Assembly (NCBI GenBank): GCA_937923745.1
Contig: CALDUO010000173.1
Coordinates: 1 to 52,869 of the forward strand
Direction of reading: 5' to 3'
Source: an uncultured Granulosicoccaceae bacterium
Lineage (GTDB): Bacteria > Pseudomonadota > Gammaproteobacteria > Granulosicoccales > Granulosicoccaceae
Length of the DNA stretch: 52,869 bases
Shown here: piece after piece, positions 37,592-52,869 of the stretch
How the letters are laid out: every line of letters begins with the position of its first letter
Position numbering within the stretch: the stretch's first letter is position 1
Translations under genes and position numbers: made by a program
The notes under the pieces: model-generated
Told to the model about the DNA's origin: nothing
What the model saw: the letters and a program-made list of their open reading frames with translations, nothing else
The model's database searches: none

Positions 37592-39619
37592 TTAGTTGCC
37601 CCTGATGACACTGGTGTCGGTAATGACCAGTGACGTACCCAGCGTTGCCGCAAATGTGGCTGTTTGTGTTTGCATTTCCACTGTCGCCGGAACACTCGCT
37701 GCCGGGCTCAAAATGGTGCCATGGTCTCCAGCGGTGAACTGAACAAGGCCAGCGCCTGCAACCGATGCCGAGGTGGGATTTAGCGGATCAAAACCCATGG
37801 TGCGTGCCAGTGGATCAGTACCGGCCAAGGGTGCACCGGGTACATTGTTGGGCACGGTTTGATCCGGCAGAGAATCGCCGCCATCACCGACGATTTCGGT
37901 CATGTGAATAGCGGCATTGGCTGCCGCCGCGGCACCGAAGTTGATTGCGTCTCCAGAATCAATCACCGTTTGTACCGCCGTCAGGAACTGCTCGAAGTCG
38001 GCCGTGCCCTGTTCGAGACCTGCGGCCGAGAGTCCTGCCAGCAGTGTTGGGCCAAATGCAGGTGATGCCACCAGCATACGGGCAAGTCCTGCTGCGGGCA
38101 TAGCCAGCGTGGCAGCGTTGACTGAATCGTCGAATGCGAGGAACGTGGTCGATACCGTGCCGCCCAGCGAGTGTCCCACGACAGTTTTGCGACTGGTATC
38201 GAGCAGTACGCCGGGTACCGCGTCGAGGCTGGCGCTAAGAACAAACAAATCGGCGGCAGACTGGCGCAAGTTATCACGGGCGTTCAGCAGAAACTGTGGC
38301 GAGTAGAAGTGCGTACCACTGCTGTCGGCAATGCCGTCGGGGCCGGGCGCACCGGTGTCGTTGTTTGCCAGATCGATACCAAAGGTTCTTTCGACATCCG
38401 TTGGGAACGGTGATGCCGTTGCAGACAGCGGATTATCGGCAGCGATACCGTGCATGGGTTGATCGATAGCGATCACTGCATGACCGGCCTGCGCCATGGC
38501 ATCAGCGATGGCCAACATCACGGTGCGGTTACTGGTGATACCGTGAACAAAGATGGTGATGGGCCAACCCGAATCAGGCATGGTCTGGCCGGATGCGGCG
38601 TTAGGCACTGTCATTAACACCGGTACCGTTTGAGTGCTTCTGAGTTCGGGCAGGGTGTTAAACGCTGTCAGGTTAGAACCAGCCGGACCCGTCCAGTTGC
38701 TGCTGATTCCGGCAGGATCATTCGGATTTGCCGGTGCGGTCAGGTAGTACGGCAGGTCAATCGTTCCGATCAGGACATCAGCAATACCCGGCAGCGCGGC
38801 ATTGACGTCATTGGTGGTTAAGCCTGTGGGTGCCATATTGACAGTGGAGCCAACGGTCTGATCTTTCACCGCTTGCAGCACCGGCCGGATGGACTGGGTT
38901 TTCATTGACCAGGCCTGGATCACCGACGCGGCCGGAATGCCCTGGGCGATACCCAGCTCGATCAGTGGTCTTGTCGCCAAACGAACAGGCTCAAGCGCTG
39001 CCGCTTCACCCACGAGTTCAGTGCGACCTGTGACTAGCCGGAAAAAACTGCTGGGGCTGGATGGCACGCCATTGAGGTTAGTCACGGCACTGGTGACGAG
39101 CATCATGTAGGTGGTGTTTTCTGCCAACGGTCTGATCGGAGAAATAGCCAGTGTGGTGCCGCCGGGCACAGACACGACTACATCGTCACTGGTCAGCTCA
39201 CCGGCAACGCCAGTGGGTGTGCCGGTTGCATCGGTGGATAACGCAAAAACACGCACACTGTCACCCAAGACCGCAGACTCAGGATCAATAGGGTCACTAA
39301 AGGAGGTGGTGATGGCCTCGGTGGTTGAGAAACCGTCAAGCGCGTTTAATGCAACCGTCGGGTTGGAGATATCGCTCGCATCGACACCCTCGTCAAGCGG
39401 GATATTCAATGTGCCGTCAAGGCTGCCACCAAACAACAGGTTATTCGGGAATGGGATAGCCCCGGTGGATGGATCGAATGCCGCCTCGGACGCCTGTCCG
39501 GCCACTGCCTGCTCACGTGCTGCATTCAGGTCGGCTTCAAAATCGAAATCAGCGCTGTCAGTACAAGCGCCTAACGCCAGCGCCAGCGGGGCTACAATGC
39601 CGGGAAATAATTTATTCAT
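37592..39619 (-). CDS. Surface lipoprotein lipase, VolA/Pla-1 family
   Basis: A 675-residue predicted lipoprotein (lipobox ALGAC, Cys19). Residues about 45-190 form an Ig-like N-terminal region with FDPSTGAIPFPNNLLF and SPIRPLAENTTYMMLVTSAV, typical of the Pla-1/cef-type extracellular lipases. The C-terminal alpha/beta hydrolase has IFVHGITSNRT, an IDQPMHGI segment and the nucleophile motif VVGHSLGG. In Vibrio the related VolA is a surface lysophospholipase encoded beside fadL, releasing fatty acid for FadL uptake. The same pairing here supports that role. AGGAG precedes the ATG; the gap to fadL is 11 bp. Confidence 0.82.
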   Translation of the reverse strand: MNKLFPGIVAPLALALGACTDSADFDFEADLNAAREQAVAGQASEAAFDPSTGAIPFPNNLLFGGSLDGTLNIPLDEGVDASDISNPTVALNALDGFSTTEAITTSFSDPIDPESAVLGDSVRVFALSTDATGTPTGVAGELTSDDVVVSVPGGTTLAISPIRPLAENTTYMMLVTSAVTNLNGVPSSPSSFFRLVTGRTELVGEAAALEPVRLATRPLIELGIAQGIPAASVIQAWSMKTQSIRPVLQAVKDQTVGSTVNMAPTGLTTNDVNAALPGIADVLIGTIDLPYYLTAPANPNDPAGISSNWTGPAGSNLTAFNTLPELRSTQTVPVLMTVPNAASGQTMPDSGWPITIFVHGITSNRTVMLAIADAMAQAGHAVIAIDQPMHGIAADNPLSATASPFPTDVERTFGIDLANNDTGAPGPDGIADSSGTHFYSPQFLLNARDNLRQSAADLFVLSASLDAVPGVLLDTSRKTVVGHSLGGTVSTTFLAFDDSVNAATLAMPAAGLARMLVASPAFGPTLLAGLSAAGLEQGTADFEQFLTAVQTVIDSGDAINFGAAAAANAAIHMTEIVGDGGDSLPDQTVPNNVPGAPLAGTDPLARTMGFDPLNPTSASVAGAGLVQFTAGDHGTILSPAASVPATVEMQTQTATFAATLGTSLVITDTSVIRGN

Positions 39620-39630
39620 GGTTGCAGCTC

Positions 39631-41037
39631 CTATTTGATAAGCCAGTTGAACTGGGCGCTGATGATGTTGGCGTCTGTGTCGTAAACACCACGAATGGTC
39701 GTGCCACCAGCGCTTTCACTGGCGTTGGCAATAGGGGTGTCATCGACGAACAGGTGAGCAAAGCCAACATCAACCGACATATTCGGGCGAAATTTGTAAC
39801 CTGCACCAAACGCGATCCAGGTCCGGTCATTACCGGGTATACGAGCGGTTCGTAATTGCGGTGACGGCACCGGGTCTTCATCAAAGGCCCAGCCCGCTCG
39901 TAAGGTCAGTTTGTTGCTGTGCGCGTAATTAAGACCAGCAGACAGTCGAACCACGTCCTCATAGCCTTGCGTATTAAAGGTGTCAGGTTGAGCCGGGTTA
40001 TCAAAGACGATACGCAGCTCTTCAAAGGAACTCCAACCGGTCCAGCTGACATCACCGAGTAACTCGACCTTGTCATTGAGTTGGTGTGCCAGAGACATCA
40101 TGACCTGACCGGGCAGGTTTGCCTCGGCGGTGGCACCGCCATTGACGAACAGCGGGATGCTATTGGCTGCCAGCACGGCTGCCAGGCCTGGATTGGTTTC
40201 AAAATCGGCATCACCGTCTAACGAATGATCGATTTTGTGGCGATAGGCAACCCCGAGCTTGGTTTGAGCAGAGGGTTTGTACAGGAGTCCGAGATTGAAG
40301 GTGGCGTCAACGGAATCGCCGTTAATTTCAGCGTAACCGTCGTTGGCTCTTACGCCAGCCGCCGTTAACTGTGCACCGGCACATTGCGCGAGATCGACGC
40401 TGCCGCGACTCACAAGCCCGAGGCAGGTCGCGCCGGAGTCCACCGAGTTGCCGAGTGTTGCATTCATAATCTGCACACTGATGCCTGCGCCAACACTGAA
40501 TTTTTCGTTCACCCGGTACGCAAAGGACGGGTTGATATCAATGACTGATACACCGGACTCGACCGCCTGGTAGCGACCCACCCAATCACGGTCGTATTCT
40601 GTTGAGTTACCGAACGGCACGCTGATGCCGACACCCCAACTCATGTTGTCATTCAGTGGTGCAACATAGTACAGGTTCGGTAAGAAGGTTGCGCCACCGG
40701 CATCAACGTTGGTGTCGCCGGGCACCGCGGTTAATCCAAAAGCTGCGTTTAGCGTGGAGCCCCGGTCTGCAAAGTCACTGTTAACACCGATCACGTGACC
40801 GGCGACGGCAAACTCACGGCTGTCCAGCTCAAGCATACCGGCGGGATTAAACCAGACAGTTGATGCATCGGCAGCAACAGCGCTGGCGCCAGCATAGGCA
40901 TTACCCATGCCCGAGCCGCCTTGTTCAATCAGGGCAAAACCGCCCGCTTGGACGTTGGCTCCGGTCAACAGGGCAGCGATTGTGCCTGCCAGCAGTGTTT
41001 TACGCACCGCCAGTGGCTTGTGGGTGTTAGCACTCAT
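39631..41037 (-). CDS. fadL: FadL/TodX-family outer membrane fatty acid transporter
   Basis: A 468-residue beta-barrel that carries long-chain fatty acids or other hydrophobic molecules across the outer membrane. A signal peptide ends near ANVQA. It is followed by the FadL N-terminal hatch GGFALIEQGGSGMGNAYAG and DASTVWFNPAGM. Alternating amphipathic strands run to the C-terminal aromatic-containing FNWLIK. GAGGA precedes the ATG. It is the first gene of a three-gene minus-strand operon with a lipase and a chalcone-isomerase-like protein, which favours fatty acid as the substrate. Confidence 0.92.
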   Translation of the reverse strand: MSANTHKPLAVRKTLLAGTIAALLTGANVQAGGFALIEQGGSGMGNAYAGASAVAADASTVWFNPAGMLELDSREFAVAGHVIGVNSDFADRGSTLNAAFGLTAVPGDTNVDAGGATFLPNLYYVAPLNDNMSWGVGISVPFGNSTEYDRDWVGRYQAVESGVSVIDINPSFAYRVNEKFSVGAGISVQIMNATLGNSVDSGATCLGLVSRGSVDLAQCAGAQLTAAGVRANDGYAEINGDSVDATFNLGLLYKPSAQTKLGVAYRHKIDHSLDGDADFETNPGLAAVLAANSIPLFVNGGATAEANLPGQVMMSLAHQLNDKVELLGDVSWTGWSSFEELRIVFDNPAQPDTFNTQGYEDVVRLSAGLNYAHSNKLTLRAGWAFDEDPVPSPQLRTARIPGNDRTWIAFGAGYKFRPNMSVDVGFAHLFVDDTPIANASESAGGTTIRGVYDTDANIISAQFNWLIK

Positions 41038-42100: not shown

Positions 42101-44587
42101 TTGATTGATTTGTTGTTTAGTCCAGCAGGCGGCGCCAAAGCGTTGAGCTTCGGGCAGATTGCTGATGTCAGCCAGTGGTTTTCGGCCGCAGGCTGGTCGT
42201 GGTGGCACCTGCTCATGGCAAGTGCGCTGGCGGCGGTGATCATCGGCTGGTCCGTCATCAGCAAAGGCACCGGTGGGCAAATCAGCACTGGTGGGCGGAC
42301 CAGCACTGGTGGGCGGACCAGCACTGGCAGTCAGGGTGGCGCGCGTGCCTCCGGGCAGCACACCCCGATCAGCAATACAGCGCCTGCCGCGAACGGCGGC
42401 CTGTCAGGTGCGAGACGCGGTGTGATTGCGCTGCTTCAATGGCTGTTTATGACGGTGTTGTTGTTGATGCTGTGGCAGCCAGCTGTCCATATCGATTCGC
42501 TTGTGAAAGGCGACAACACCATCGCCGTCCTCATTGATGGCTCCCGGAGCATGTTATTGCCTGCCGACGCCACCTCATCGCAACCCACTCGGTTACAGGC
42601 CGCGTTACAAGCACTGAACAATACTGCAGGTTTCGACACATCATTGCTTGAGCAACTTGGGCAGGACTTTACGGTGTCGGTCAAAACCTTCGACCGTACC
42701 GTGCAAACGATTGGCGATGATGAACTGCGCGGCCTGGCCTCGACTGACAGAGTGGCGGGGGAGGCAACACGCGTTAAACAGGCATTGCTCGATACGGCGG
42801 CTGAGGCATCGCAGTCGCTGCTTGCCGGAGTGATTGTGCTTTCCGATGGTGCAGATACAGACACGCAGGAGACAACCTTCTGGCAGTCCTTGAGGGCTAG
42901 CTCCGTGCCGGTGTACACCGTTGGGCTGGGTGCGCTTGAGCATCACGATTTGATGATAGCCGATGTCGATATGCCGGCATCAGCACCGGCAGACACATTG
43001 GTCACAGCGCAGTTGCAGCTGCGCTACTCAGTGCCCGGCTCGACCGTGTTGCGTGTGACACGCGACGATCAGTTGCTGTACTCGGGTCGGGTGGACCTGC
43101 CCGAAGGCAAAACCGACATCCGACATAATGTGCGCATCAGGACCGGAGAGCCGGGTGCCTCGCAGCTTGAGTTTTCGGTTGAAACGCAGGAAAACGAGGT
43201 CAGTGTCGTCAACAATCAATACCGCCAACCGTTGTGGGTCAGTGATAAAAAACCGCGCGTTTTGTATATCGAAGGCGAACCCAGGTGGGAGTATAAATTT
43301 TTGCGCCGTGCGGTGACGGCATCGAGTCCCGTCGATGTGGTTAGCCTGTTGTACACATCACCCAATAAATTTTATCGCCAGGGTGTATCCGGACGACAAG
43401 AGCTCGAGGCAGGTTTTCCAACCGACGCTGAAACGCTTTTCGAGTACGACGCGATTATTATCGGCAGCCTTGATTCGGCGTTGCTCAGTGTGGAGCAACA
43501 CCAGTTAATTCAGGACTTTGTCAGAATTCGTGGCGGCTCGTTGTTACTGCTCGCTGGTGCCAAGGGTATTGATGATGGCGGGTGGAGCCGCACGGCAGTC
43601 GGCCAGGCATTACCGATGACAGCGGCAACTCGTGACACCACCTATCGGCGCGAAAGAACAGCGTTGAGCGTCACGCAGGCAGGCGCAGCCGTCGACTGGC
43701 TTTCGTTAAGTGACAACAGTGACCCGCAGTCCGGCTCGAATCCGTCTGGTAATGGATCTGGCAACCAATCGGGCAACCAATCCGGCAATTGGGCGACGTT
43801 ACCTAAGGTCGCAGATATCCAGTCAACCGGTACGCTCAAACCAGGAGCAACCGTGTGGGTTGCGGCAACGTCCGATGACAGGTATATACCGGTGCTGACC
43901 TGGCAGCGGTATGGACGTGGCAGAACGTTCGTGTTGGCCACCAGTGGCACTTGGCGATGGCAAATGTCGTTACCGGCAACCGATCAGCGACACGAGTTGT
44001 TCTGGAGCGGCTTGTTGGGTGAGTTGGCCGATGGTGTATTGCCAGGGATTGTCGTATCCGGTGCGACACGTGTGGTGCGAGACAACGACACATTGGCGCT
44101 GTCTATCGACGCTCGCTCAGGTAGTTTCGCTCCAAGCGCAAACCCTGTTCGTATCAAAGTCACCGGGCCAAACAACGTGACTCAGGCTGTCACTGCGCAA
44201 GCTGACCCTGCTGTGCCGGGTCGTTATCTCACCAATGTGTCGATGCCACGTTCAGGCTTATACACACTGGAAGTTATGGCTGACGATACTGAATCAACTG
44301 ATAACAAACACACTACGCAACTGACTGTTCTGCGAGAAGCAGATACGGCCGAAGATTATGCGTTGGTGCAAAACAAGGCTTTTTTGTCAGAGGTTGCGCG
44401 TGTTACCGGTGGTCAGTATCTGACCCCGGGAGAGGTCGGGCAAATACCGGCCCTGGTGGCCGGTCACAGCGCGACGCAAACACGACAAAGCGTCTACCCG
44501 TTATGGCAATTGCCACTGTTTTTTCTCGTCTTGGTGCTCCTGAAAATTGGAGAGTGGTTACTGCGTCGAGGCTGGAATCGTCTATGA
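42101..44587 (+). CDS. VWA / glutamine-amidotransferase-like membrane protein
   Basis: An 828-residue membrane protein heading the MoxR operon. Predicted helices are at about 33-51 and 106-127, with one near the C-terminus (PLWQLPLFFLVLVLLKIGEWLL). A von Willebrand A-like domain starts at about 140 with the metal-site motif DGSRS (Asp146, Ser148, Ser150). A class I amidotransferase-like fold follows (VLYIEGEPRWEYKFLRRA to LLLLAGAKG), with no nucleophile cysteine visible. A beta-rich region comes before the last helix. Such proteins accompany MoxR and DUF58 genes in many bacteria; their role is unclear. The start TTG at 42101 is uncertain. An 18-bp repeat array encodes residues 55-78. Confidence 0.78.
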   Translation: MIDLLFSPAGGAKALSFGQIADVSQWFSAAGWSWWHLLMASALAAVIIGWSVISKGTGGQISTGGRTSTGGRTSTGSQGGARASGQHTPISNTAPAANGGLSGARRGVIALLQWLFMTVLLLMLWQPAVHIDSLVKGDNTIAVLIDGSRSMLLPADATSSQPTRLQAALQALNNTAGFDTSLLEQLGQDFTVSVKTFDRTVQTIGDDELRGLASTDRVAGEATRVKQALLDTAAEASQSLLAGVIVLSDGADTDTQETTFWQSLRASSVPVYTVGLGALEHHDLMIADVDMPASAPADTLVTAQLQLRYSVPGSTVLRVTRDDQLLYSGRVDLPEGKTDIRHNVRIRTGEPGASQLEFSVETQENEVSVVNNQYRQPLWVSDKKPRVLYIEGEPRWEYKFLRRAVTASSPVDVVSLLYTSPNKFYRQGVSGRQELEAGFPTDAETLFEYDAIIIGSLDSALLSVEQHQLIQDFVRIRGGSLLLLAGAKGIDDGGWSRTAVGQALPMTAATRDTTYRRERTALSVTQAGAAVDWLSLSDNSDPQSGSNPSGNGSGNQSGNQSGNWATLPKVADIQSTGTLKPGATVWVAATSDDRYIPVLTWQRYGRGRTFVLATSGTWRWQMSLPATDQRHELFWSGLLGELADGVLPGIVVSGATRVVRDNDTLALSIDARSGSFAPSANPVRIKVTGPNNVTQAVTAQADPAVPGRYLTNVSMPRSGLYTLEVMADDTESTDNKHTTQLTVLREADTAEDYALVQNKAFLSEVARVTGGQYLTPGEVGQIPALVAGHSATQTRQSVYPLWQLPLFFLVLVLLKIGEWLLRRGWNRL
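42263..42334 (+). repeat. 18-bp in-frame repeat near the N-terminus of the VWA protein
   Basis: Four 18-bp units, the middle two almost identical (ATCAGCACTGGTGGGCGG and ACCAGCACTGGTGGGCGG), encode STGGRT-type hexapeptides between the first two membrane helices. Confidence 0.9.
43742..43789 (+). repeat. 12-bp in-frame repeat encoding SGNQ in the VWA protein
   Basis: Four 12-bp units such as GGATCTGGCAAC and CAATCGGGCAAC encode SGN, GSGN, QSGN and QSGN. They form a Gly/Asn/Ser linker after the amidotransferase-like domain. Confidence 0.85.
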
Positions 44588-45588
44588 AGCGCGTCTGTCG
44601 CACACGATCAACAACTATCGCTATTGCTCTGGCCATCGCTCTGGCCCGAACTTTGGCCCGAACTTTGGCCCGTGCTCTGATACTGCCCGTCTTGGTGGTT
44701 TTGTTGTTACCGGTAACGTGGTCAGTTGCGGCTGCGGCAGACTATGTCGTGGTGGTGGAAGGGTTGGGCGGCAATGAGGACTACACGCAGGCGTTTGGTG
44801 ACAGCGTTGCTGCCATTGAGGCTTCACTGAACGACTCCACAGCGGTCACTGTGTTTGCTGCTGCAGATGCCACAACTGACGCGGTTGCACACCACATGAC
44901 ACAACTGGCAATGACACTGACACCCACTGATCAGTTTTCATTGATGCTGATTGGCCATGGCAATGCGACGCAACGGGGCTATCGGTTTAATGTGCGTGGT
45001 GCTGACATCACCGACGCGCATTTGGTGCAGTGGCTTAACGAGCTGCCGGCAACGCGACAGTTAGTCGTGGTGGCCACCAGTGCCAGTGGCGGTTTGCAAA
45101 AAGCGCTTGCGGCGCCTCATCGCATTGTTGTCACCGCCACCAAAAGTGCGCAGGAACAAAACGCCACACAGTTTCACCGTTACTGGTCGCAGGCACTGAA
45201 TGACCAGGCCGCTGACAGTGACCGCAATGAAATCATTAGCGCTGATGAGGCCTTTGAGTTTGCGACACAATCAGTGGCGTCTCATTACCGCGACAAAAAT
45301 CTGTTGGCAACAGAACACGCCGTGTTCACCGCCGGTACTGATATCGTCTCCCGCCGTTATGTCATCAACCGCACCGGTAGGCTCGCGTCCCTTGAAGACG
45401 ACAGCCAGGTCAGGGGCCTGTTGGTGCAGCGCGATCGTATCGAAGATGAATTTCATGCGCTGTTAAAAAACCGTTCTGACAACCCGTCGTGGTCTGACGA
45501 CGACTATTACGCTCAACTCGAAGTGGTACTACTGAAACTGGCTCGCTTGCAGCTCGACATCGATGCTGCGGCTGGAGAATCGCCGTGA
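44584..45588 (+). CDS. Exported caspase/C13-fold protein without catalytic cysteine
   Basis: A 334-residue exported protein. An unusually long, repeat-built signal region (about 10-55) is followed by a caspase-like fold. His125 lies in LIGHGNATQRG, but the nucleophile strand reads VVVATSASGG (residues 161-170), where peptidases have DACxSGG; Ser166 stands in the cysteine position. Residues 211-222 (DSDRNEIISADE) fit an EF-hand-type calcium loop. A C-terminal helical segment follows. It overlaps the genes on both sides by 4 bp. Similar exported proteins occur beside MoxR genes. I infer a binding or regulatory role, not proteolysis; a serine nucleophile is possible. Confidence 0.68.
   Translation: MKRVCRTRSTTIAIALAIALARTLARTLARALILPVLVVLLLPVTWSVAAAADYVVVVEGLGGNEDYTQAFGDSVAAIEASLNDSTAVTVFAAADATTDAVAHHMTQLAMTLTPTDQFSLMLIGHGNATQRGYRFNVRGADITDAHLVQWLNELPATRQLVVVATSASGGLQKALAAPHRIVVTATKSAQEQNATQFHRYWSQALNDQAADSDRNEIISADEAFEFATQSVASHYRDKNLLATEHAVFTAGTDIVSRRYVINRTGRLASLEDDSQVRGLLVQRDRIEDEFHALLKNRSDNPSWSDDDYYAQLEVVLLKLARLQLDIDAAAGESP
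44617..44676 (+). repeat. 12-bp repeat in a signal peptide coding region
   Basis: Five 12-bp units (ATCGCTATTGCT, CTGGCCATCGCT, CTGGCCCGAACT, TTGGCCCGAACT, TTGGCCCGTGCT) encode IAIA, LAIA, LART, LART and LARA at residues 12-31. The array puts arginines into the region ahead of the hydrophobic core. Confidence 0.9.
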
Positions 45589-47951
45589 AGAACCGTGTAG
45601 CTACATTACGCTGTCTGTTGTACCTGATCACCTATATGTGTTGTCTGCCCGTTGTACAGGCGATGCCCGGATCGATGACTGTCGCCTACGACACGCTACG
45701 CTCGCCGGGCTTAAAAGCTTGCGATGACACATTGTTTGCCGGTGACCGTGATGCTGCGCGTGCGTGTTATGCACAATTGTCCACCAGTGACAGTGTATTG
45801 GAGCGAGCAGAATCGGCGCACGCGTTACGGGATGTGAAGCTGGCGAACAGACTGTATCGCGAGGCATCACGCACCGACGACCCCTATGTGCTGACCCGCT
45901 GGGGTTACCTCTTTTTGCAAACGCATCAAGTCAGTGATGCTGCTGCATTGTTTCGTGAGGCGATTCAGTTGCAACCGGGGTTTATTCCGGCACGTATCGC
46001 ATTGGCTGAAGCGCAGGGTCGAGAATTTCAGGGTGAAGCGCGACAAAGTTTATACGACGTCATAAACGAAGATCCCGAGGCAATTGGTGCACTGTTGCTG
46101 CTGGCCCACATCGAACTCGAACTGCAGCAACTTGAGAGTGCGAAGCGGTTACTCGATGCAGCATTCGAATTGGCGAGCACCAAACAGATATCACCGTTGG
46201 AAATTTATGCCCTCTATGTGGCGCACGATATTCTCTCCGGTGAGTTGAAGAACGGTCGAAACACAACCGAGTGGATGGACAAGGCGTTGTCGCTGAATTC
46301 CAATTACTCCGATATATTTGTGATACCCGCGCACTTTTTTCTTATAACGTATCGATACCGTGAGGCGGTAGAGTTGTATCAGCGCGCAGTGAAAGCCGAT
46401 CCCGCGCATGCTGATGCGCACTCCAAACTGGGCATCAATCTCTTTCGCATCAACGATATTTTCGGTGCGCGATTTCATTTGCAAAAAGCGTATCAGCTCG
46501 ATCCGTTTAATGTGGAAACCGTCAACACCTTAAGACTGCTCGATGATCATGACAGCATGCGTGTGACCTGGACTGCCAATACGCCACAACCGCAAGATAA
46601 ACGTCCCGATGAACCTGATCAACCCGATGACGGGCATGCCCATGGTAGCGCCAAACCGCTCGCGCGAGCACTGATCAGAATGGATCATGATGAGGCAGAG
46701 GCGCTGGAGCCTTATGTAAAGTCACTGACACAGGATGCGCTGGCGGTGTTAACAGAGCGTTACGCGTTTAAGTTACAAAAGCCGGTAACGCTGGAGCTGT
46801 ATCATAACCACGATGATTTCGCGGTTCGAACTGTGAGCACACCGGGTGTCGGGTTGCTCGGGGTGACATTTGGTTATGTTGTGGCGATGGACTCACCCAA
46901 AGCGCGCGAGCAAGGCGAATTTCATTGGGGCAGTACTCTCTGGCACGAACTGGCTCACGTCGTCACCCTCGAAGCTGCCAACCATTTGTTGCCGCGGTGG
47001 CTCAGTGAGGGTCTATCGGTGTATGAGGAGTGGCACACCGGACCACTGCCTTCACGCGAGCTGCCATTGCAGGTTCTGCAGGTGTTGCAGGATAACGGCT
47101 TTTTAGGCGTCGATATGCTCGACAGCGGGTTTGTGCGACCCACCTATCGAGGGCAGGTAACCGTCTCGTACAATCAGGCGGGCCTGTTGTGTACATACAT
47201 TGCCGATCGGTGGGGGCATGACGCGCTGGTCGGCATGCTCCATGATTATGGTAAGGGCCTGAGTACCTCCGAGGTGATTTTGCGTAACCTCAAGATCAGC
47301 ACACACGATCTGGACAGGGAGTTTCTCGCGGCGATGCGTCAACAGTACAGTGTCATCCTCGCGAACCTCGATGAGTGGTCCGGTATACCGATGGTGATGG
47401 ATAGTCTGATTCAAAGTGAGCAGTGGCAGCGGGTTGAACGCCTGAGCCGCCGTCAACTCGACCTGTACCCGGATGCCGTTGGCAACGACAGCGCCTGGTT
47501 AACGCTGGCAGATTCGCTCGATGCACAACAACGCTCCGACGAGGCATTGGTGACATTAATGGCGTGGTTCGAAAAAGGGGGGCATTTGCCGGAGCGGCTT
47601 CTGGATTTGGCATCGCGCCTGAAGGTGTCCGGAGCCGATAAAGATGCCATTCGTGTTCTTGAGGCACTGAACTGGGTTGCGCCGTATCATGCACAGGCGC
47701 ATATTGATTTGGGTGATTATTACCTGCAGCGCGACAAGCCCCGAAAGGCACTGCGCGAATTTAATGCAACGTTGGGGCTGGCTGAGGTCAATAACAGTGA
47801 TGCCTGGTTTGGTCGGGCACAGTCCTATCATGCGTTGGCGCAGCCCGCGCAAGCCAAACGCAGTGTGCTCAAAGCACTCGAAGCCGCACCGTTTCACCGG
47901 GAAGCGCAACACTTACTGTTAGATATTGTATCGGGAGAATCTGTTGAGTAA
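45585..47951 (+). CDS. TPR protein with gluzincin (peptidase MA-like) domain
   Basis: A 788-residue exported protein (signal about 1-27, cleavage after VQA). TPR-like repeats (about 45-310) come before a zinc metallopeptidase domain with His454, Glu455 and His458 in WHELAHV and the third ligand Glu475 in WLSEGLS. This matches the peptidase MA-like pattern. More TPR repeats (about 600-780) follow. The start is GTG overlapping the previous stop by 4 bp; the end overlaps the MoxR gene. Active-site residues are intact, so it is probably a working periplasmic peptidase; its substrate is unknown. Confidence 0.82.
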   Translation: MKNRVATLRCLLYLITYMCCLPVVQAMPGSMTVAYDTLRSPGLKACDDTLFAGDRDAARACYAQLSTSDSVLERAESAHALRDVKLANRLYREASRTDDPYVLTRWGYLFLQTHQVSDAAALFREAIQLQPGFIPARIALAEAQGREFQGEARQSLYDVINEDPEAIGALLLLAHIELELQQLESAKRLLDAAFELASTKQISPLEIYALYVAHDILSGELKNGRNTTEWMDKALSLNSNYSDIFVIPAHFFLITYRYREAVELYQRAVKADPAHADAHSKLGINLFRINDIFGARFHLQKAYQLDPFNVETVNTLRLLDDHDSMRVTWTANTPQPQDKRPDEPDQPDDGHAHGSAKPLARALIRMDHDEAEALEPYVKSLTQDALAVLTERYAFKLQKPVTLELYHNHDDFAVRTVSTPGVGLLGVTFGYVVAMDSPKAREQGEFHWGSTLWHELAHVVTLEAANHLLPRWLSEGLSVYEEWHTGPLPSRELPLQVLQVLQDNGFLGVDMLDSGFVRPTYRGQVTVSYNQAGLLCTYIADRWGHDALVGMLHDYGKGLSTSEVILRNLKISTHDLDREFLAAMRQQYSVILANLDEWSGIPMVMDSLIQSEQWQRVERLSRRQLDLYPDAVGNDSAWLTLADSLDAQQRSDEALVTLMAWFEKGGHLPERLLDLASRLKVSGADKDAIRVLEALNWVAPYHAQAHIDLGDYYLQRDKPRKALREFNATLGLAEVNNSDAWFGRAQSYHALAQPAQAKRSVLKALEAAPFHREAQHLLLDIVSGESVE

Positions 47952-48975
47952 TGCAGGCACTACGCTAAACACCGAAGACATCAGGGAACAGGCCTCGCGG
48001 TTCCGCGAGGTGAATGAACAGCTTCGTCACGAGGTCGGATCTGTGGTTGTCGGGCAAGATCATGTGGTCGAGCACTTACTGACAACGTTGTGGGTGGGTG
48101 GGCACTGTCTGGTCACCGGTATGCCGGGCACTGCAAAGACGTTGCTGGTGAAAACCTTAAGTGACGCGTTGGGCCTGTCGTTTAACCGGATACAGTTCAC
48201 GCCGGATCTAATGCCTGCCGATATCACCGGCACCGATATCGTCGAAGAGGCGGATGACGGCAGCAGACAATGGCGATTTGTGCCGGGTCCTTTGTTTACC
48301 CACGTGCTTCTCGCTGATGAAATCAATCGCACGCCACCGAAAACACAGGCGGCATTACTGGAGGCGATGCAAGAGTATTCAGTCACTGTGAGAGGCACCG
48401 GTCACACGATCGACAAACCGTTTTTTGTGCTGGCAACACAAAATCCGCTGGAGTTGGAGGGCACCTATCCGTTGCCGGAGGCACAGCTTGATCGTTTTTT
48501 GTTTAACATCATGCTCGATTATTTACCGCGCGATGACGAACATGAAGTGGTCCGACGATTTACCGCCGGTGAAGTGCCCTCGGTTGCCAAGAGCTGCACC
48601 AATGCTGAACAAATTCGACAGTTCCAGCAACTGGTCAGACAGGTACCGGTGGCAGATGCTGTCAGTCAGTATGCTGTTGATTTGGTCAGGGCTTCACGAC
48701 CGGAATCGGACGCAGCTCCCGATAGCGTAAAACGTTATGTGAAGTTTGGTGCCAGTGTGCGCGCCACGTTGTTTATTACGCTGGCGGCCAAAGCACGCGC
48801 GCTAATGAACGGGCGGTATCATGTTGAAAACAGCGACATCGACGCCTTGGTCAAACCGGTGCTGCGGCATCGTGTCCTTACCAACTATTTTGCAGAGTCT
48901 GATGGCAGAACCATCGACGATATTCTCGACGATTTGGTTGAGAGCTGTCGTGCAACGCAGGCAAAGGCTTCCTGA
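47944..48975 (+). CDS. MoxR-family AAA+ ATPase
   Basis: A 343-residue cytoplasmic ATPase. Walker A is GMPGTAKT, Walker B LLADEINRTPPKTQAALLEAM, sensor 1 FFVLATQNPLELEGTYPLPEAQLDRFLF, here cited only as the region 157-185. A C-terminal lid domain follows. MoxR proteins act as chaperones that mature VWA-domain partners, several of which are encoded around it. The start is taken as TTG 47944 because CGGGAG lies 6 bp before it; TTG 47926 in the same frame is possible. Confidence 0.92.
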   Translation: MSNAGTTLNTEDIREQASRFREVNEQLRHEVGSVVVGQDHVVEHLLTTLWVGGHCLVTGMPGTAKTLLVKTLSDALGLSFNRIQFTPDLMPADITGTDIVEEADDGSRQWRFVPGPLFTHVLLADEINRTPPKTQAALLEAMQEYSVTVRGTGHTIDKPFFVLATQNPLELEGTYPLPEAQLDRFLFNIMLDYLPRDDEHEVVRRFTAGEVPSVAKSCTNAEQIRQFQQLVRQVPVADAVSQYAVDLVRASRPESDAAPDSVKRYVKFGASVRATLFITLAAKARALMNGRYHVENSDIDALVKPVLRHRVLTNYFAESDGRTIDDILDDLVESCRATQAKAS

Positions 48976-48977
48976 CC

Positions 48978-49892
48978 TTGGCAGTCACGCCTGCCACATC
49001 GCGATTGATTGATCCTGCTGTGCTCGCACGGTTTGGGTCACTGGAGTTAGTGGCCCGTGCGGTGGTAGACGGTGTGCTCAATGGCATGCACCGTTCGCCT
49101 GATTTCGGTTTTAGCCAAGAGTTCGAAGAGTATCGGGCCTACAACGAAGGCGATGATCCAAGGCACGTAGACTGGAACGTGTATGCCCGCACGGATCGAG
49201 CGTTCATCAAACGCTTTAGCGGAGACACCAACACGACGTTAACGGTGGTTATTGACAGTAGTGCCTCAATGAATTTTGCATCGGGTGGCCTGACGAAATT
49301 TGACTACGCGCGGTATCTTGCCGCGGCTTTGTTTTGGTTGGCCAGAAAGCAGCGCGATGCGTTGGCATTGGTGGTTTTTAATGATGCAGTGACTGATGTG
49401 TTTCCGCCATCCACTCGTCCCGATGCATTTCAGCGGGTACTGGCTCTGCTGCAGCGCGCCGAGTGCGGTGCCAAGACTGACATGCCAGCGGCCATCAAAC
49501 AGTTGGTGCCTCATAGTCAACGTCGCGGCATACTGCTGTTTTTATCCGATTTTTATACCGATCACGCAACGCTTGAGACGGCACTCGCACCGCTGGTTGC
49601 ACATGGCCAGGAAATCGCGTTTGTGCAGGTGGTTGATCCCGAAGAGCGTGCGCCAGTCTTGCAGGAGGTAACAGCGCTCAGGGGACTAGAGTCCGGTCGG
49701 CAAATTGAAGTGTCTCCGGAGTATGTCAGTGGCGAGTACCGTGAGCGTTTTGCAGCACATGGACAGGCGATCAGTGAGCTCGCGGTTAAAACCGGGGCAG
49801 ATTACGTACAGGCAGTCACATCAGAACCGGTGGATCAGTTAATTCTGAAGTATCTTGATTACCGGCGTCGTAGTGGCGCAGGGCGCCGCTGA
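48978..49892 (+). CDS. DUF58 (VWA-like) protein
   Basis: A 304-residue soluble protein of the DUF58 family, the usual partner of MoxR. The signature region RAYNEGDDPRHVDWNVYART is at about residues 51-70. A VWA-like fold follows with VVIDSSASM, where the metal-site DxSxS is kept. It lacks the N-terminal membrane helices found in some family members. The start is TTG at 48978, 2 bp after the moxR-type stop. It shares one base with the next ATG. Confidence 0.9.
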   Translation: MAVTPATSRLIDPAVLARFGSLELVARAVVDGVLNGMHRSPDFGFSQEFEEYRAYNEGDDPRHVDWNVYARTDRAFIKRFSGDTNTTLTVVIDSSASMNFASGGLTKFDYARYLAAALFWLARKQRDALALVVFNDAVTDVFPPSTRPDAFQRVLALLQRAECGAKTDMPAAIKQLVPHSQRRGILLFLSDFYTDHATLETALAPLVAHGQEIAFVQVVDPEERAPVLQEVTALRGLESGRQIEVSPEYVSGEYRERFAAHGQAISELAVKTGADYVQAVTSEPVDQLILKYLDYRRRSGAGRR

Positions 49893-51946
49893 TGTCGCTA
49901 CTCAGTCCGTTATTTTTATTGGGTGCCGGTTTATTGATTGTACCGTGGGTGCTGCATTTGCTGCGTCAGCGTAATGCACCCGTGCAAGACTTTCCAAGTA
50001 CACGGTTCCTGGAACACAGCGATGCCGCCAGCTCAAAGTCCAAAAAACTGTCTTACAAAAAGCTATTGCTCTTGAGGCTTTTGTTACTGCTGGCACTGTG
50101 TTTTGTATTTGCGCAGCCCGTGATTCGCACGGTGAGCGACTGGATGGGCTCGGCAAGACAACACCATATTATTGTGTTGGATCAAACATTCTCGATGCAG
50201 GCCAGTGGTCGCTGGCAAGCCGCGACCGACGCGGTGGAATCTTTATTGAGTGCGATACCGGATGCACATCCGGTACAGTTGTTCGGCTGGACCGGCGCGT
50301 TAGTGCCACTGCACGATAGTCTGCAGGATCGATCGGCGGTGCAGCAAGCGCTCGCCTCTGCTCAGGCCGGTTATACGCAAGGCGACTTTGGCACGCTTAT
50401 GCGCCGTTTGAATATCGCCTCTGCAGACATCTCGTTACCGGTTAACGCCTACCTTGTCTCCGACATGCAAGCCAGTGCAATGCCGCCACGGTTAAACGAC
50501 TTGTTGGCGCCGTCGATTGCGGCCCTGCAATTAATTGCGGTCGGTAATAGCGACGCTGAAAACCGCTGGGTCAACGCGCGGGTGCGGAGTTTGTCAAACG
50601 ACAGCTTTGCCATCGCAGCCACGCTGGTTGGCCCGCCAGAAACAGACAGCACGGGCACGTCGGCTACGCTGTTGTTGGACGGACGCACCGTGCAGACAGT
50701 GCCATTCACCGTGCAACCCGGCACCACGACACAAAGCGCAGAATTTGATCCGTTGGTTTGGCCCGTAGCCGGCGATATCGATGTTTACGATGTCGCCATC
50801 GAACCACAGGACGCGTTGCCTGCTGACGATGTACGATCGGTGGCCGTCGGTGCCGATGAACAGGTCAGGGTGCTGTTAACCGGCAGTGACCTTGATGCGA
50901 ACAGTCGGTCATTGCGGTTTTTGCAAACCGCTTTGCTGACGGATGATCGTAATACCGTTGAGCGCGACGAACGATTAACCGGACAGCCCATTGGCGACTT
51001 TGATGTCAGCGTGGTACATATCGATCAACCCACCAGTGGTGACGTGTTACCTGCGTTATCCCAAGCGGTCAACAGTTATCGACTGGCAGGCGGACATGTG
51101 TTGGCTGTAATCGGTCGCGCCGGCGACTATCTGGTTGATGTGACGGTGCCGGCGGCACGTATCGGCACTGTTGACAGCACGCATCCAATGAGACTTGATG
51201 CCAACGGCTGGCGATCAGTAACTGTGTATCGTGATGTGCCGGTAGCGCTACCGTCATCGACATCTTTGGCGACTGGCGGTGCGGATCAATTTCGTGTCCT
51301 TGTGGCAACCGAGGCGGGGAGTCCTGTGTTAATTGAGCAGTCTGCCGGGCAGGCAGCGGGCAAGTTATTGTGGTTAACTTTACCGCTGGACGGTGACGCA
51401 AGTGATCTACCGCTGTCACCGGCGTTTGTGCCATGGTTGCATTCCGTGGTCGATTACATGGTCAGGTACGACCAGTACCCGCAACGATCAACGGTGGGTG
51501 ACACCTTGCAGCTACGTGGTAACACGCAAATCTTTGATCCCGAAGGTCAGGCAATGCTCGGTGTGTCTGCATCAGCCAACGGCTCGACGGTAAGTCTGTC
51601 ACGTCCGGGCGTTTATCAAATACAGGATCGCAGTGGGCTACAGGCAGTCACCGTATTAACCAGCGCGGCTGAATCCAACCTGACAGTGGCCTCGCCAACG
51701 CTACTGACGAATTGGACCGAGGGTATTCAAGCGTCGACAGACCCTAACGCAGTCAGTACAGTGGCTGGACAAAGTGGTGCGACAGGGGGGCAGTCGTCTT
51801 CAGCTGCTACCGACGCCAGCGCAACCGAGGCGCGAGGCACGTTGGTAAACCTGTCCCGATGGGTACTGCTGCTGTGCGCCCTGTTAGCGATTCTGGAAAT
51901 CTGTTACGCCAACAGCTTGCTGTGGGTGAGGAGGTCTGCCTCATGA
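49892..51946 (+). CDS. BatA N-terminal-domain membrane protein
   Basis: A 684-residue membrane protein. The N-terminal 80 residues match the BatA/aerotolerance N-terminal domain: helix at about 4-24, LLRQRNAPVQDFPSTRFL, then a second helix at 57-77. A VWA-like region with ILDQTFSMQ-type sequence follows; its metal-site serines are partly lost (DQTFS). Beta-rich domains lead to a final helix at about 655-675. It overlaps the next gene by 4 bp. Bat genes were named from Bacteroides aerotolerance; function here is not known. Confidence 0.82.
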   Translation: MSLLSPLFLLGAGLLIVPWVLHLLRQRNAPVQDFPSTRFLEHSDAASSKSKKLSYKKLLLLRLLLLLALCFVFAQPVIRTVSDWMGSARQHHIIVLDQTFSMQASGRWQAATDAVESLLSAIPDAHPVQLFGWTGALVPLHDSLQDRSAVQQALASAQAGYTQGDFGTLMRRLNIASADISLPVNAYLVSDMQASAMPPRLNDLLAPSIAALQLIAVGNSDAENRWVNARVRSLSNDSFAIAATLVGPPETDSTGTSATLLLDGRTVQTVPFTVQPGTTTQSAEFDPLVWPVAGDIDVYDVAIEPQDALPADDVRSVAVGADEQVRVLLTGSDLDANSRSLRFLQTALLTDDRNTVERDERLTGQPIGDFDVSVVHIDQPTSGDVLPALSQAVNSYRLAGGHVLAVIGRAGDYLVDVTVPAARIGTVDSTHPMRLDANGWRSVTVYRDVPVALPSSTSLATGGADQFRVLVATEAGSPVLIEQSAGQAAGKLLWLTLPLDGDASDLPLSPAFVPWLHSVVDYMVRYDQYPQRSTVGDTLQLRGNTQIFDPEGQAMLGVSASANGSTVSLSRPGVYQIQDRSGLQAVTVLTSAAESNLTVASPTLLTNWTEGIQASTDPNAVSTVAGQSGATGGQSSSAATDASATEARGTLVNLSRWVLLLCALLAILEICYANSLLWVRRSAS

Positions 51947-52869
51947 GTCAACGCAACGACAGTGCGATCAAACGGTTTGATCGTTATCTGAATGCGATTA
52001 TGTCCCGAGAGACGGTTAGGCTGTTAATGGCAGCGGTAGTCAGAGTGCTAGTAGTGCTGGCCGGTATTACTGCCGTGGCGATGGCTTGTGCTCACTTTGT
52101 CGGTTACACCGAATGGCTTCTGAATATCACACGAATCGCTTTTCTGCTCTCGCCAATTCTGATATTTATTCGTTACTTCTGGCAGCCGTTACATCGATTA
52201 CGCTACACAGAGGGTTCTCAAATACTGGCTTCGGCGCACGACGGGTTTGGAGAAAGGTTACAAACCTATCTTGAATTAAAACACGCTGATCGGCCGTCTG
52301 CATTCACGCCTTTATTGGCGGAAGACAATACAGCCATTGCAGCGCGGTTGCCGGTGCACAAAGCGATACCGCGTGCGCGTCTGGCGGCACCGCTGTTATT
52401 GCTGTTGCTGTCGGGTGGTGGCATCACCGCTTTTTTCCTGGCGAACCAGGATTGGCGGCAAAACGATGTTAAACACTTGTGGGCAGGGTGGTTAAAAGAC
52501 GGATATATCGCGCCACGCGATATCGCCGTGAGTCCGGGTAACCAAACAGTGCTGTGGGGATCGGATGTCGATATAGCAGCGGTGCTGTCAGGTTTTGCCA
52601 GTGAGACGGTGACATTAACCATAACGCCTGATAACGAACCAGCTGCAACAACGGTGCTTTATCGCGAACCGCCGGTGACGCCAACGGACAACACGGTAGC
52701 TGACAGTGCCGCCGGCCTGCTCGAAAATACCAGTGCAGCTGGCGGTGACCGCTTTGGCTTTTCATTGTTTCGGGTGACCGAGCCTGTGACATACTCTGTG
52801 TCTACCGCGTATACCGCCAGCGAGATCTACACCATTGACGTGGTTAAACCTGCCACGGTTCTGTCGATT
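51943..52869 (+). CDS. DUF4175-like membrane protein, 5' part (cut by window end)
   Basis: 309 codons are visible and the frame is open to the window end. Two N-terminal membrane helices (about 25-50 and 60-80) and a third (about 145-165) surround a segment LASAHDGFGERLQTYLEL. A periplasmic beta-rich part with GYIAPRDIAVSPGNQTVLWGSDVDI follows. This layout fits the large DUF4175-like proteins found with MoxR-DUF58-BatA genes. The ATG overlaps the BatA-like stop (ATGA). Confidence 0.65.
   Translation, partial: MSQRNDSAIKRFDRYLNAIMSRETVRLLMAAVVRVLVVLAGITAVAMACAHFVGYTEWLLNITRIAFLLSPILIFIRYFWQPLHRLRYTEGSQILASAHDGFGERLQTYLELKHADRPSAFTPLLAEDNTAIAARLPVHKAIPRARLAAPLLLLLLSGGGITAFFLANQDWRQNDVKHLWAGWLKDGYIAPRDIAVSPGNQTVLWGSDVDIAAVLSGFASETVTLTITPDNEPAATTVLYREPPVTPTDNTVADSAAGLLENTSAAGGDRFGFSLFRVTEPVTYSVSTAYTASEIYTIDVVKPATVLSI

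Follow-up and report, generated by a model that had tools for sequence, protein, structure and literature searches.

The window, which comprises the entire contig C173 (52,869 nucleotides), comes from a genome of 4.1 Mb that is 84.9% complete. No 16S gene was detected in this genome; its class is inferred to be Gammaproteobacteria, since genomes of the Methylobacterium kind rank in its phylum but in a different class. Seven genes on the forward strand (Table 1) occupy its last part, from position 42101 to the contig end, where the seventh gene is truncated. Adjoining genes overlap or lie at most two bases apart: overlaps of 4 bases are found at g1/g2, g2/g3 and g6/g7, of 26 bases at g3/g4 and of 1 base at g5/g6, and a gap of 2 bases separates g4 from g5. 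The 26-base overlap would shrink if g4, whose start codon is uncertain, started later. A promoter scan gave results at chance level. The upstream neighbours, on the reverse strand (37592–41037), encode a lipase-like protein that is exported and a protein resembling outer-membrane transporters; genes related to the second of these also adjoin the operon in several related loci. The initial annotation of this DNA had proposed a seven-gene MoxR unit, and the tight junctions, together with identical gene order in 36 out of 36 uncut loci, support this proposal. The identities that it had assigned (MoxR, DUF58, BatA-like, DUF4175-like, caspase-fold and TPR-gluzincin) agree with the Pfam and NCBIfam matches, with those of relatives and with hhalign, and N-terminal export signals are predicted in g2 and g3, both of which it had described as exported. 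Three further points are described here: g2 lacks the catalytic cysteine, a DUF4159 protein forms an eighth member and the set is widely spread.

Table 1. Predicted genes of the operon at the end of the window
Gene	Predicted product	Coordinates	Strand	Basis
g1	VWA and GATase1-like membrane protein	42101..44587	+	Pfam/NCBIfam, TM prediction, 20-row alignment
g2	Exported caspase/C13-fold protein with C-terminal helical region	44584..45588	+	Pfam, hhalign, alignment
g3	Exported TPR protein with gluzincin-type peptidase domain	45585..47951	+	Pfam, alignment
g4	MoxR AAA+ ATPase, start codon uncertain	47926..48975	+	Pfam, alignment
g5	DUF58 protein, no TM segment	48978..49892	+	Pfam, alignment
g6	BatA N-terminal double anchor and VWA, third TM segment C-terminal	49892..51946	+	Pfam/NCBIfam, alignment
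g7	DUF4175-like membrane protein, N-terminal 309 residues	51943..52869	+	Pfam matches of relatives

Pfam matches of g4 to AAA_3 of the MoxR type (E 3e-60) and AAA_lid_2 (E 1e-15), with intact Walker A, Walker B and arginine residues, assign this protein to the MoxR AAA+ ATPases. In the alignment the conserved positions are G65–T72, D131–E132, N173 and R190, with Walker A at approximately 48118–48141 and Walker B at approximately 48310–48321. The g5 protein matches DUF58 (E 5e-44) and has a MIDAS motif, DSSAS (residues 93–97, bases 49254–49268), complemented by T167 and D191. Neither g4 nor g5 has predicted TM segments, and their ATPase and MIDAS sites are intact; the two are predicted to work as a pair in the cytoplasm. 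The BatA N-terminus is recognized in g6 (E 8e-15), which also matches TIGR02226 and has the MIDAS motif DQTFS (residues 97–101, bases 50180–50194). Pfam matches of g1 to GATase1_like and VWA are weak; its MIDAS motif reads DGSRS (residues 146–150, bases 42536–42550), and D146, S148, S150 and D249 are invariant in the 20 aligned rows. In alignments of relatives the MIDAS residues are retained in all three proteins. Three TM segments plus large soluble parts are predicted for each of g1, g6 and g7, those of g1 at residues 36–54, 107–125 and 798–816. The loop between the first two segments of g1 (42263–42418) contains short Gly/Ser/Thr-rich repeats (TGGRTSTGGRTSTG).

The g7 fragment in the window is short. 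Full-length g7 proteins of relatives have approximately 1,100–1,400 residues, some with Gln/Gly-rich repeats, and DUF4175 (PF13779) is matched by 9 out of 12 of them (best 1.2e-7); the copy of Gemmatirosa kalamazoonensis (Gemmatimonadota) scores 26.0 bits against a cut-off of 27.3 bits. By description, g7 may resemble AdvA of Acinetobacter baumannii, a DUF4175 protein with TM helices that is tied to cell division and is not described as belonging to a MoxR operon (PMC7481262). A second copy of the operon end is found in the same genome on contig C234 (15000–23650 of locus L097), which begins within g6, encodes a full g7 of 1,401 residues and is 83% identical to the window end over 1.6 kb. This g7 is followed by the gene of a small conserved protein and by a pair of glycosyltransferase-like genes. 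Either the bin is mixed with another species, or the operon has been duplicated.

The g3 protein combines TPRs with a Peptidase_MA_2 domain (Pfam, E 1e-13). Its HExxH motif (residues 454–458, bases 46944–46958) is followed by Glu475 (47007–47009), and all zinc-site residues are invariant; together with the export signal, these features place g3 among the gluzincins. In a PDB profile search, the best 60 matches to g3 were exclusively TPR proteins, and in a scan of the contigs of its own genome the sole match was an unrelated TPR locus.

An unusual member is g2. Its match to Peptidase_C13 is weak (0.041; best relative, 2.8e-8), and a PDB profile search with g2 yielded nothing significant. A comparison with C13-like proteins by hhalign gives 98.5% and an E of 2.4e-15, with Ser166 aligned opposite the cysteine. 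The assignment of g2 to the clan CD fold comes from sequence profiles, the single-sequence structure model being poor (pLDDT 46). The catalytic histidine, His125, is kept (44956–44958), and Ser166 occupies the position of the catalytic cysteine (45079–45081); g2 thus lacks the His–Cys dyad and with it the feature that defines C13. Around the nucleophile, C13-like proteins from this class read SACYSG, DSCYSG or ATCYSG, versus [TSAG]-S-[AS]-S-G in the readable g2 homologues, which also keep the His of GHG. Serine replaces cysteine in all readable g2 proteins of the window's class and in that of Gemmatirosa; in this alignment one row (L052) is masked at the nucleophile position and hence unreadable, and two rows (L098 and L117) have identical sequence. 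Compared to the legumain family C13 and clan CD in general, g2 therefore has the fold and the His motif in common and differs in its serine, in being exported and in being fixed in an operon.

Could g2 be catalytically active, as a peptidase of the serine type with a caspase fold and a His125–Ser166 dyad, and form a relay of proteolysis with g3 that MoxR controls? Both residues are among the 23 nearly invariant positions of g2, and the nucleophile position is Ser in every readable sequence, second phylum included. Catalytic sites of dead enzymes usually drift. On the other hand, we know of no serine-type member of clan CD. Legumains have a Glu two residues N-terminal to the catalytic Cys, which is absent from g2, and g2 is overall less conserved than g3 or g4. 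We consider this alternative improbable, and slightly more so its boldest form, in which g2 would be the first caspase-fold serine peptidase, processing or unlocking g3 in the periplasm under MoxR, as an ATP-gated relay of two proteases across the inner membrane. Judging from the alignments, g2 would instead be a conserved pseudopeptidase, a serine variant being less likely, and the invariant Ser may have a structural or binding role more readily than a catalytic one. The suggestion of the initial annotation that the caspase-like protein is a sensor or adaptor is strengthened, since Ser replaces the Cys nucleophile in every readable homologue. The motor, the MIDAS adhesion sites and the zinc peptidase all look functional, and g2 alone looks dead.

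In the window's family (f1), a sequence search detected g2 in 22 out of 24 relatives. With searches of the class and of two other orders added, and with profiles of the seven genes run on the surrounding DNA, the total came to 44 loci, which belong to six families (f1, f18, f94, f120, f257 and f260), all in the window's class. All seven genes are present in the same order and on one strand in 36 of these loci, and the remaining eight are truncated where a contig or locus ends. Among 369 sampled genomes of the class, strong matches to g2 occur in seven, and those to g7 and to the g3 peptidase domain in six each. The matches coincide in these six genomes, and the contig with g2 ends early in the other one. 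In twelve genomes of these orders that lack g2, a full g1 is missing as well, the sole match being a weak VWA hit of 342 residues. The operon is inherited in an all-or-none fashion, as a block. A plasmid search with g3 returned one record, from Gemmatirosa (34% identity over 95%), where the gene order is g1, g2, g3, DUF4159, g4, g5, g6, g7. The full set of seven families is present in every uncut locus as well as in Gemmatirosa. The intactness of the set across six families and a second phylum suggests that its products probably form one envelope-maintenance machine.

DUF4159 is, as far as gene neighbourhoods and a domain fusion indicate, an eighth and often adjacent member of the set. Its gene adjoins the operon in 24 out of 44 loci, either upstream on the same strand, divergently or downstream, and is inserted between g3 and g4 in Gemmatirosa. 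The g6-like proteins of Alphaproteobacteria mostly have 920–1,000 residues, and the one tested with Pfam (L157) is a BatA–DUF4159 fusion, which ties DUF4159 to BatA. In the window's genome the DUF4159 gene is located on a separate contig (C105; L133, 5025–6068), away from the operon.

Homologous cores without g2 and g3 are found elsewhere. In ten loci that a g1 search detected outside the class, and in one locus of Methylobacterium bullatum, MoxR, DUF58, BatA-type and VWA/GATase proteins are encoded with no g2, g3 or g7 nearby. Alphaproteobacterial loci are matched by the profiles of g1 and g4–g6 (g4, 360–396 bits; g1, 47–75 bits), and a Planctomyces plasmid also has MoxR, DUF58, BatA and VWA/GATase genes and lacks g2 and g3. 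The window's operon contains this MoxR–DUF58–BatA/DUF4159–VWA/GATase core in one cluster, except for the separately located DUF4159. The alphaproteobacterial cluster, with which we equate the cmdA–cmdD operon of Rhizobium leguminosarum (RL3499–RL3502) from descriptions and not from its sequence, shares MoxR, DUF58, BatA, DUF4159 and the g1-type VWA/GATase protein with the eight-member set described here. It differs in having no caspase-like, TPR-peptidase or DUF4175 genes, in the fusion of DUF4159 to BatA and in the position of MoxR as the first gene. The Bat (Bacteroides aerotolerance) operon similarly shares MoxR, DUF58, BatA-type VWA membrane proteins and a TPR protein, but includes BatD and lacks genes for a caspase-like protein or a peptidase. 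The window's cluster has MoxR, DUF58 and the BatA double anchor, without BatB, BatD or a separate BatC TPR protein, and the same genome encodes the full classical set (MoxR–DUF58–DUF4381–BatA–BatB–TPR–BatD) elsewhere, on contig C88 (L053, 1204–8783). Since the core occurs without g2, g3 and g7 in other lineages, these three genes probably joined an older Bat/cmd-type core and were then fixed in the lineage of the window.

In the MoxR phylogeny, the proteins from the operons with caspase-like and peptidase genes, including that of Gemmatirosa, form one clade (97/94), and those of the alphaproteobacterial cluster form a separate one (100/99). Two MoxR paralogues from the window's genome also fall outside the operon clade, with uncertain placement due to long branches. 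The f94 operon groups with Gemmatirosa (93/87; L076 and L159), a relationship that could reflect exchange of the operon between phyla.

The distribution of the core bears on whether g2 and g3 work with it. According to the initial annotation, the connection would fail if the caspase-like and peptidase genes were absent from relatives in which the MoxR, DUF58 and Bat genes remain. Among near relatives they are never missing while the rest stays; the alphaproteobacterial core and the C88 Bat operon do lack them. The latter two cases would fit a Bat-type operon of the ordinary kind, to which g2 and g3 are joined by a shared promoter and not by a shared function. Against this, neither gene is missing or displaced in the 36 uncut loci and Gemmatirosa, while DUF4159 moves, and the whole block is lost together, which makes mere neighbourhood rather unlikely.

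The likeliest of the explanations considered, though by no means an assured one, is that the operon encodes a Bat/cmd-type complex for maintenance of the inner membrane that reaches into the periplasm. In this complex MoxR and DUF58 would drive the membrane VWA proteins, and these would use the pseudo-caspase as an adaptor for the metallopeptidase. MoxR would hydrolyse ATP and, through DUF58, bring about conformational changes in the VWA proteins, whose action in the periplasm would rely on MIDAS contacts. The g2 protein could bind peptide ends or partner proteins without cleaving them and thereby position or restrain g3, which would cleave envelope proteins, the overall task being envelope integrity or quality control. 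The gating of the peptidase by MoxR that the initial annotation had proposed is likewise conjectural. Support comes from the domains, the constant gene order, the presence as a block, the second phylum, the MoxR clade, the invariant sites and the replacement of Cys by Ser. It also comes from described systems: the VWA domain of the BatA-like protein BB0173 is periplasmic and the cmdA–cmdD operon is required for envelope integrity (PMC5700661), and NorD contacts its target through MIDAS and NorQ supplies the ATP-driven force (PMC9976466). Three points weigh against such a maintenance complex. First, g2 may contact the membrane proteins rather than g3. Second, the fold of g2 is assigned from sequence profiles. 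Third, deletion of all bat genes in Leptospira biflexa caused neither a growth nor an oxidative phenotype (PMC3557215), an outcome suggesting that tests under a single condition may miss an effect.

The place of g3 can be read in two ways, as effector or as client of the MoxR/VWA complex. If it is a client, the operon would be a maturation system in which g3 is remodelled or metal-loaded by MoxR/VWA, with g2, DUF4159 and DUF4175 as assembly factors. Analogues are NorQ/NorD, CbbQ/CbbO and the methanol dehydrogenase maturation genes, and the described MoxR/VWA pairs are maturation chaperones (PMC9976466; PMC3893208). Like the window's operon, NorQ/NorD, CbbQ/CbbO and RavA/ViaA pair a MoxR ATPase with a MIDAS-bearing VWA partner; unlike it, they are two-protein systems (NorQ/NorD being described as cytosolic) without membrane VWA proteins or exported partners. 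The g3 protein is a constant member of the operon and its zinc site is complete. To our knowledge, zinc peptidases normally do not need an ATP-driven metal inserter, and the alphaproteobacterial core exists without g3, so that g3 is not a client of this core in general. Maturation is an alternative to be taken seriously, albeit an unlikely one.

That the operon belongs to the MoxR-vWA ternary systems for conflict or defence, with a caspase as its effector, is very improbable. Such systems do bring together domains of the MoxR, VWA and caspase-superfamily types (PMC7159879), and g4 weakly matches the bpMoxR model. However, g2 is exported and has no Cys, and the order of the operon is constant over whole families, unlike that of systems with variable effectors. 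PADLOC gave no match of weight and a phage search no match, and neither VMAP nor iSTAND nor any comparable third component accompanied by a variable effector was found in the cluster. Based on the PADLOC and phage searches, the exported Cys-less g2 and the constant order, we set this possibility aside.

A literature search, the coverage of which excluded most subscription journals, returned no description of the full set. What is new here is the joining of an exported zinc peptidase and a Cys-less caspase-fold protein to the known Bat/cmd module. Bat/MoxR operons are widespread, and the literature searched offers no general mechanism for them. The definition of the set by eight members and its all-or-none inheritance make it annotatable in other genomes, and the exported partners offer a concrete and testable periplasmic target for MoxR–DUF58–Bat complexes.
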